Below are positions 57,056 to 58,404 of a DNA stretch of 64,000 bases, piece by piece. The position numbers and the translations under genes were made by a program. Origin of the DNA: Bacillota bacterium (GTDB lineage Bacteria > Bacillota > Limnochordia > Darwinibacteriales > DTU012). Location: contig DURM01000009.1 in assembly GCA_012837335.1 (NCBI GenBank), positions 1-64,000 of the forward strand. The letters run 5' to 3'. A model generated the notes under the pieces. It was not told the origin of the DNA. It ran no database searches and saw only the letters and a program-made list of their open reading frames with translations. Numbering within the stretch: position 1 is the first letter of the stretch; the number at the start of each line of letters is the position of its first letter.

Positions 57056-57095
57056 AATCCCTCGGTTAAGCAAGTTAAAGCACCGAGGGATTTTT
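57056..57095 (+). terminator. second terminator upstream of the DUF5320 cluster
   Basis: AATCCCTCGGT and ACCGAGGGATT form an 11-bp perfect stem with a 15-base loop, followed by TTTG. With the preceding hairpin it isolates the downstream promoter. Confidence 0.8.
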
Positions 57096-57102
57096 GCATG
57101 CA

Positions 57103-57155
57103 ATTATTGACATATGTCAATAATAATGTATACTATAGGTAAATGACATATGTCA
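57103..57155 (+). promoter_or_regulatory. promoter with two palindromic operators for the DUF5320-DUF134-NifX cluster
   Basis: A 22-bp perfect palindrome centred on GACATATGTC spans 57103-57124, and TGACATATGTCA recurs at 57144-57155, centres 36 bp apart. TTGACA (57107-57112) inside the first palindrome, 16 bases, then TATACT (57129-57134) make an excellent promoter. One operator covers the -35 and the other lies at the start of the transcript. This is the layout of an autorepressed operon; the DUF134 protein at 57.5 kb is the likely regulator. Confidence 0.8.
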
Positions 57156-57177
57156 AAAACATAAGGAGGTGACTGCT

Positions 57178-57450
57178 GTGCCAAGAAGAGATGGAACTGG
57201 CCCGCTTGGTGCCGGCCCCATTACCGGACGAGGCATGGGTTACTGCGCAGGCTGGGCAGGGTACGAATCTGGATTTAGACCGCGTTTTGGCTGCGGTTTC
57301 GGGAGGGGATTTGGATTAGGTTACAGCGGAGTCTTTGCTGCCAATTCAGCACCCACAGATCCCGGATTCCAAAAAGAATTGCTGGAACAGCAAAAAACCA
57401 TCCTGCAAGAACGGGTTAAGCTCATTGAAAAACAGTTAAAAAGGTTATAA
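57178..57450 (+). CDS. DUF5320 family protein
   Basis: 90 residues from GTG at 57178, eight bases after AAGGAGG. PRRDGTGPLGAGPITGRGMGYCAG is the family signature, followed by a Gly/Phe/Arg-rich stretch with two further Cys (FGCGFGRGFGLGY) and a C-terminal helix (KELLEQQKTILQERVKLIEKQL) that may form a coiled coil. Such proteins accompany NifX-like and iron-sulfur-related genes in anaerobes. The function is unknown; the Cys and the company hint at metal or cluster handling. It is the first gene of a three-gene unit. Confidence 0.85.
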   Translation: MPRRDGTGPLGAGPITGRGMGYCAGWAGYESGFRPRFGCGFGRGFGLGYSGVFAANSAPTDPGFQKELLEQQKTILQERVKLIEKQLKRL

Positions 57451-57495
57451 CAGGACCGGGGGTGATCGGAGGACGCTCCGATTGCCCTTAAATGT

Positions 57496-57891
57496 TTGGG
57501 GGTGGTGATTATCGGCAGACCTATGAAATGGAGAAGAGTGTGTAGTTTACCTGAATCCAACCGTTTTGGTCCTTTAGGTGTGCCTAATGTTGGGCGGGAG
57601 CTTGTATTGATGACGGTTGATGAGTATGAAACGATTAGACTGATCGACTTAGAGGGATTTACTCAGGAAGAATGTGCGGAGCAGATGAAGGTGGCCCGGA
57701 CAACGGTTCAGGGCATCTACGGTAAGGCTAGACGAAAACTTGCAGAGGCGCTGGTAGATGGCAAGGTTCTGATTATTGAAGGTGGACAGTACCGCTTATG
57801 TGATGACGAGGGAGAAGGCTGCGGACGCGGCTGTCGCAGACGCAGGCGACGCAGAAGATTTGCAGGTGAAAAAGGTCTGAACGGTTCATAA
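57496..57891 (+). CDS. DUF134 family helix-turn-helix protein
   Basis: About 131 residues. [22 protein letters not shown] and [54 protein letters not shown] are the DUF134 pattern, the second part a sigma-70 region 4-like helix-turn-helix. The C-terminus is a basic tail, [15 protein letters not shown]. The start is unclear: TTG 57496 or GTG 57502/57505 all lie in or next to the GGGGGTGGTG ribosome site. It probably binds the two palindromes upstream of the cluster. Confidence 0.85.
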
Positions 57892-57913: not shown

Positions 57914-58288
57914 ATGAAGATAGCTGTACCGGTAGTGGAAAAAACTGTGGAGTCAACTATAAGCTTATCTTTTGGTCGAGCTCCATATTTCCTAATTTAC
58001 GATGCGGATAACAAAGAATCTTTCTTTTTGGAAAACAGCGCTGCTGAAAGTACTGGAGGCGCAAGTATTAAAGCATCTCAAATAGTGGCTGATAGTGGTG
58101 TAGAGATACTGATTACTCCCAGCTGTGGTAAAAACGCAGCTGATACCCTTGAAGCTGCAGGTATAATAATGTATAGGGCTTTACCTGTTTCAGCTGGAGA
58201 GAACATTGAGGCCTTTTTTGAAGGTAAACTTACTGAACTAGATGCAGTTCTAAGCGGCGAAGGTGGGCGCTCTTCGCAGTCAACGTAG
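57914..58288 (+). CDS. NifX/NifB-type iron-molybdenum cluster-binding family protein
   Basis: 124 residues. KIAVPVVEKTVESTISLSFGRAPYFLIYDAD and GASIKASQIVADSGVEILITPSCGKNAADTLEAAGI are the pattern of the dinitrogenase iron-molybdenum cofactor (NifX/NifY/VnfX-like) family. In non-nitrogen fixers such proteins are thought to carry iron-sulfur or iron-molybdenum clusters for other enzymes. There is no nif gene here. ATGGAGGATC precedes the ATG. It is the last full gene behind the palindromic promoter. Confidence 0.88.
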   Translation: MKIAVPVVEKTVESTISLSFGRAPYFLIYDADNKESFFLENSAAESTGGASIKASQIVADSGVEILITPSCGKNAADTLEAAGIIMYRALPVSAGENIEAFFEGKLTELDAVLSGEGGRSSQST

Positions 58289-58339: not shown

Positions 58340-58384
58340 ATGAGTTGTTCCGTCACCATCATGAATAATAGCAAAACCGCCTAG
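58340..58384 (+). CDS. 14-residue reading frame with good ribosome site, possible gene remnant
   Basis: The ATG at 58340 lies seven bases after GGTGGAGGA and encodes MSCSVTIMNNSKTA before a stop that falls in the following terminator. It may be the head of a deleted fourth gene of the DUF5320 cluster. Confidence 0.25.
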   Translation: MSCSVTIMNNSKTA

Positions 58385-58404
58385 GCGTTACCAGGCGGTT
58401 TTAA
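58373..58404. terminator. bidirectional terminator
   Basis: AAAACCGCCT and AGGCGGTTTT form a 10-bp perfect stem with a 10-base loop between the NifX-like gene and the convergent BsuPI gene. Confidence 0.85.

Follow-up and report, generated by a model that had tools for sequence, protein, structure and literature searches.

The question raised by this locus is what reads the twin palindromes that lie on the promoter of a DUF5320-DUF134-NifX gene cluster, and to what effect. In the window, that is, the whole 64,000-nucleotide stretch of DNA analyzed here, operator O1 (ATTATTGACATATGTCAATAAT) is a perfect 22-bp palindrome at 57103-57124, and operator O2 is the 22-mer GTAAATGACATATGTCAAAAAC at 57139-57160. 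The exact palindromic core of O2 (57144-57155) is a second copy of TGACATATGTCA and starts 36 bp downstream of the first. Perfect palindromes of 22 bp are expected by chance about 0.015 times per 64 kb (64000/4^11). The sigma-70 type promoter (57107-57134, plus strand) consists of TTGACA at 57107-57112 and TATACT at 57129-57134 with a spacer of 16 bp, and matches the consensus at 11 of 12 positions. Its TTGACA box sits in the left half of O1, and the predicted transcription start, at about 57141, falls within O2. The palindrome over the TTGACA box, the recurrence of its core 36 bp downstream and the consensus promoter had all been pointed out in the first-pass annotation, and all were borne out. 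The window has just two exact copies of GACATATGTC and the 2.4-Mb genome just two of TGACATATGTCA, so that a search of the organism's own genome for a wider regulon by the exact site gave nothing beyond O1 and O2; TGACATATGTCA with one mismatch was present at three other places, in or beside unrelated coding sequence. At the level of sequence comparison, a lone 10-mer pair is weak evidence, and conservation in relatives is decisive.

Three plus-strand genes make up the unit, and Pfam confirmed the cluster as originally described for each of them. The first is a DUF5320 gene with a GTG start (57178-57450, 84.5 bits), which is also the commonest first gene behind the operator. It is followed by the DUF134 gene (57511-57891), a member of PF02001 (UPF0251) with 76.1 bits against a cut-off of 27, and by a NifX-like gene with a Nitro_FeMo-Co domain (57914-58288, 72.1 bits), the only NifX-like gene of this genome. 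The DUF134 protein is 124 residues long and has the recognition helix ARTTVQGIY; a second DUF134 of the genome, on contig C85, has the helix ARTTVQRLY and is adjoined by an Mrp gene. The start of the window DUF134 gene is uncertain, being either ATC at 57511 or GTG at 57505. The family alignment puts the first codon at ATC 57511, behind a GGGGGTGGTGATT ribosome site (window 57490-57520). Among the scored DUF134 genes, ATC as first codon was seen only in the window, and locus L049 has ATA; a Pusillibacter copy (L315) also begins with ATC by alignment. Upstream of the promoter, at 57056-57092, we observed an inverted repeat (AATCCCTCGGT / ACCGAGGGATT) followed by TTTT, which is likely the terminator of an upstream GNAT-family gene. 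A GC-rich inverted repeat, AAAACCGCC...GGCGGTTTT (58372-58403), lies between the NifX gene and a convergent minus-strand gene and is likely a terminator as well; in the terminator scan it received a score on the minus strand alone. An Rfam search of the region gave no match.

The DUF134 (PF02001) profile was searched against 61 relatives, the class, 348 genomes of the phylum, many of the sampled genomes being fragmented metagenome bins, and the contigs of named genomes. Family labels in the locus and genome analyses came from small profiles built for the analysis. DUF134 scored above the cut-off in 233 of the 348 phylum genomes, or about two thirds. In nearly all of 80 named loci, which came from Bacillota, Synergistota, Spirochaetota, a Chloroflexi bin and others, GTTATTGACATATGYCAWTAAC-like sites, usually two of them, preceded DUF134 by approximately 40-700 bp. 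With up to 5 mismatches allowed and some loci fetched twice, a GTTATTGRCATATGYCAATAAC-type operator was present within 800 bp upstream in 113 of 145 DUF134 loci, compared with 1 when the sequence was shuffled and none when the pattern was reversed. The stretch downstream also held sites at 19 loci, and those inspected belonged to the next operon, typically DUF5320. The spacing of twin sites was 32-46 bp, most commonly 34-36 and 38-39 bp. The site centre was ATAT in 89-91 of 91 upstream sites, and the outer ATAA was conserved. As evident from these results, the GACATATGTC pairs that the first-pass annotation had proposed to look for near the DUF134 genes of relatives lie near the majority of those genes, commonly in a twin arrangement, and sites near DUF134 were found in Bacillota, Synergistota, Spirochaetota, Bacteroidota and enterobacterial plasmids. 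The paired palindromes are, on this comparative evidence, very probably binding sites of the DUF134 repressor family.

From the sites, their overlap with the promoter, and the co-occurrence, target genes and covariation described below, all read from sequence, we infer binding, dimerization, repression and a signal as follows. The palindrome GTTATTGRCATATGYCAATAAC, with a -35-like core (TGAC, TGGC, GGGC or GAGC) in each half-site, would be read by a DUF134 dimer by means of its helix-turn-helix, a relative of sigma-70 region 4. Two dimers would bind, one on O1 at the -35 box and one on O2 at the start site, and their occupancy would exclude RNA polymerase from a near-consensus promoter, such that the DUF5320-DUF134-NifX unit is repressed by a protein that it encodes. 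DUF134 would then be released by a signal, perhaps the state of a metal cluster or the redox status, at conserved cysteines. Five cysteine positions are conserved at 98-100% in the class of DUF134 proteins with Gly in the recognition helix, and we offer as a guess that this suggests metal, cluster or redox sensing. We consider it highly likely that DUF134 is a sequence-specific autorepressor that reads GTTATTGRCATATGYCAATAAC and clamps the near-consensus promoter of this unit.

The positions of O1 and O2 fit a repressor that acts by promoter occlusion. They also bear on the possibility that DUF134, bound to the sites, acts as an activator or alternates between activating and repressing, which draws on the fact that regulators can act both ways; for IscR, the placement of the -35 box inside the site decides the sign (PMC8561392). 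However, O1 covers the -35 box, O2 covers +1 and the promoters are already near consensus, which is the usual arrangement for repression, and we regard activation as unlikely. Among 145 related operators with TTGACA, 130 are followed after 15-19 bp by a -10 box with 5-6 of 6 matches; therefore, the operator lies on near-consensus promoters.

We found that the motif and the protein occur together. The degenerate motif, with 2 mismatches, was present in 176 of 233 genomes with DUF134 versus 18 of 115 without it (P = 2.6e-27, odds ratio 16.6, a P value that overstates independence because the 348 genomes are related), and the reversed-pattern control in 29 of 233 versus 8 of 115 (P = 0.14). The matches in the 18 genomes without a detected DUF134 arose in part by chance and are in part apparently real, for example in G203. 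In that genome, in which DUF134 was not detected, we observed a perfect operator beside NifX and ferredoxin-ATPase genes (C73:12678; L226, L324). At loci identified by the motif only, 54 of 58 had a cluster gene within about 1.5 kb, counting DUF134, DUF5320, NifX, Mrp/NBP35, ferredoxin-ATPase, glutamate-synthase-like and linked radical-SAM genes. In a set of 163 distinct site clusters that is biased towards DUF134 loci, 144 were directly beside a DUF5320, DUF134, NifX, Mrp or glutamate-synthase-like gene, DUF5320 being the commonest. A GTTATNNNCATATGNNNATAAC-type site, which marks membership in the DUF134-operator regulon as we define it, was found before the DUF134-cluster genes. The genes on the target side encode DUF5320, DUF134, NifX-like proteins, NUBPL/Mrp-type ATPases, MinD-like ATPases with 4Fe-4S inserts and a glutamate-synthase-like protein; occasional neighbors of the operator are radical SAM, MOSC, flavin reductase and Fur- or DtxR-type regulator genes. 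The theme of the regulon is likely the handling of Fe-S or Mo-Fe-type clusters in anaerobes, as judged from these genes. Operators adjoining DtxR-like or Fur-family regulator genes were observed at L160 (1234-1289), L208, L222, L253 and L170, hinting at cross-talk with metal regulation.

The recognition helices of DUF134 proteins are of the VARTTVQ[G/R]IY or SRPTFQRIL type, and the residue X of TTVQX predicts base 6 of the half-site (GTTAT-6): Gly goes with T or C, and Arg with G. Counted per protein, Gly was paired with 76 non-G and 4 G, and Arg with 57 G, 6 non-G and 4 ties. By normalized mutual information with base 6, this residue ranked top of 110 protein columns. The half of each site that bears TTGAC was left out of the scoring, and therefore the promoter itself does not make the covariation signal. 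Both types are present in the genome studied here, where the window protein has Gly and TGAC halves and the C85 paralogue has Arg and a GTTTTGAACAT half. The Gly/Arg residue changes only twice on the tree among the scored rows, with at most 2 independent pairs; therefore, the covariation is not phylogenetically replicated. We also found 78 of 145 distinct Arg-type proteins with no site in the fetched stretch, and some genomes with such siteless genes carry operators before DUF5320, NifX or Mrp operons elsewhere (e.g., G238). Siteless genes together with sites at other operons suggest that DUF134 may act in trans, and autoregulation by DUF134, as judged from the placement of sites, is not universal. 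The earlier proposal of a DUF134 autorepressor with a GACATATGTC-pair site is supported by the site near most DUF134 genes, the co-occurrence and the helix covariation, with the qualification that many Arg-type genes have no site in front.

A second position behaves similarly. The Arg of VARTT is kept in 234 of 239 DUF134 proteins and is Gln in five. Operators in which T replaces C9, either in both halves or in the free half (GTTATGGGTATATACCCATAAC), were at first seen at two of these Gln loci and nowhere else. A prediction was then recorded for G188, G213 and G300, namely that C9-to-T operators occur in these and not in Arg genomes. Such operators were present in four of the five Gln genomes, two of them among those predicted. 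Of the five, three (G174, G188 and G213) have exact ATRGGTATATACCYAT, which all 60 comparison genomes lack; with one mismatch, it was found in G103 and in eight comparison genomes, at whose places no cluster gene was found. The variant operators lie at DUF5320 genes in G213 and at DUF134/DUF5320 in G174 and G103, and the search for them in G300 found none. Over the three genomes, the prediction therefore came out once at the expected genes, once at an unexpected gene and once not at all. In G188 (L336 2044-2098), the twin C9-to-T operators lie outside the usual regulon: the consensus promoter that carries them is followed by a long leader and then by a ribonucleotide reductase gene. A single origin of Gln was not rejected (p-AU 0.83). 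The covariation rests on few evolutionary events, and its phylogenetic weight is limited. If it is read correctly, Gly-to-Arg in TTVQG would shift the half-site preference from GTTATTGACAT to GTTATGGGCAT or GTTATGAACAT, and Arg-to-Gln in VARTT would favor T at position 9 (TATATA core).

This covariation weighs against the view that another regulator beside the genes, e.g., of the Fur family, binds the operator and that DUF134 merely travels with the cluster. Fur-family genes do adjoin some operators (L170, L208, L222 and L253), and the motif was matched in most, not all, genomes with DUF134. Nevertheless, two residues of the DUF134 recognition helix covary each with a different base position, most of the listed loci showed no Fur-family gene and there is none among the cluster genes of the window, which leaves this explanation quite improbable. 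Less probable still is a site for a CRP/FNR-type regulator such as HcpR. The delta-proteobacterial HcpR consensus is wyTTGACnnnnGTCAArw, its TTGAC-N4-GTCAA matches O1 exactly (PMC1274295), and a Crp/Fnr gene adjoins one DUF134-NifX gene (L315). We rejected this reading because the four central bases are free in HcpR sites, whereas the ATAT centre is nearly invariant here, and because the bases of the half-sites vary with the DUF134 helix, Arg-type operators having no TTGAC in the second half. In addition, the outer ATAA is conserved, the motif follows DUF134 and the target genes are not of the hcp or frdX type. Chance palindromes, or a promoter with no operator, are a negligible prospect, for although chance would give 1.7 one-mismatch matches to GACATATGTC in the window, twin exact copies lie on one promoter, and conservation across phyla refutes this reading.

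DUF134 as a sequence-specific repressor is also consistent with the likely fold of its DNA-binding part. The helix-turn-helix that had been attributed to the protein was recovered and, by sequence and in the AlphaFold model, is sigma-70 region 4-like. Against Pfam Sigma70_r4_2, the window protein gave an E-value of 3.7e-5 but 23.7 bits, which is below the cut-off of 25.7, and a plasmid DUF134 gave 27.6 bits, above it. The model had a mean pLDDT of 83.8 (about 95 over the helices), and Foldseek aligned it with structures of sigma region 4, among them sigma-E on -35 DNA, at 0.6-0.9 Å over about 47 residues with a probability of 0.98-1.0 and weak E-values (0.03-0.3). A search of solved structures by sequence revealed no DUF134 relative (best E 0.02). 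DUF134 as a sigma factor was rejected: region 2 is absent, the match to sigma models is confined to their region 4 part and the protein has 124 residues. In our alignment to the E. coli sigma-70 segment, the conserved Arg of DUF134 falls on R584, and X of TTVQX on Q589. R584 of sigma-70 reads the -31 C:G pair, and R584A prefers A:T there (PMC2613000); Q589 is near -35T (PMC8561392). C9 of the half-site corresponds to -31 when TTGACA is read in the sigma register, and therefore the Gln/T9 pair agrees with the R584 data; the base with which X covaries is adjacent to that assigned to Q589. We tentatively put forward, as a reading with somewhat less than an even chance of being right, that across the family a sigma region 4-type head docks on the half-site in the -35 register of sigma-70, with the R584 equivalent at the -31 base and the Q589 equivalent (Gly/Arg) at the -34 base. 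The operator would then be a palindromic doubled -35 box, and the regulon would comprise NifX/Mrp/ORP-like metal-cluster genes whose state is sensed via cysteines.

The first-pass annotation had called DUF134 targets poorly described. In the open-licence literature, we found no description of an operator, regulon or specificity residues for DUF134/UPF0251/COG1342 (PF02001, "predicted DNA-binding protein"), UPF0251 appeared only in a transposon-insertion listing and the operator sequence was not found. The family is widespread: 187 plasmid records carry DUF134, mostly from Klebsiella, Citrobacter and E. coli, and a phage search found none. In an E. coli plasmid copy of DUF134, two CATATG sites spaced 29 bp apart immediately precede the start; in a Phocaeicola copy, GTTATGAACATTTGTTCATTAT goes with an Arg helix. 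DUF134-NifX pairs occur on enterobacterial plasmids (L311 3942-4757), in an E. coli plasmid beside PaaI-type thioesterase and Dps genes; in Pusillibacter faecalis (L315 3001-3774), DUF134 and NifX are fused in one reading frame. If our reading holds, an uncharacterized family would become one of regulators whose operator and target genes can be named and whose specificity residues are testable by single substitutions. The DUF5320, NifX-like, Mrp/NBP35 and ferredoxin-ATPase genes of anaerobes would be tied into one regulon, giving a handle on their function, and DUF134 would be a naturally occurring example of a repressor that may recognize the hexamer that sigma reads.

Compared with known systems, DUF134 resembles sigma-70 region 4 in its helix-turn-helix fold, in having TTGACA in the half-site and in an Arg that is nearly invariant and aligns with R584. 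In contrast to sigma-70, it has no region 2, it would sit on and cover the promoter and its target is palindromic; therefore, it is presumably a dimer. HcpR sites resemble O1 in TTGAC-N4-GTCAA, and co-evolution of helix and motif was used for HcpR too (PMC1274295), whereas the central ATAT is fixed here and the protein, genes and outer bases differ. The orange-protein (ORP) complex of Desulfovibrio and MrpORP, which acts in Fe-S biogenesis there (PMC6345978), share the NifX-like, Mrp/NBP35 and ferredoxin-type MinD ATPase parts. Of these, the window holds only NifX, Mrp lies beside the C85 DUF134 and all parts occur together in relatives. The orp operons of Desulfovibrio, in contrast, are not under a DUF134 operator and rely instead on sigma-54 together with IHF and a cognate regulator (PMC3897727; also Fievet 2011, as cited in a later paper).
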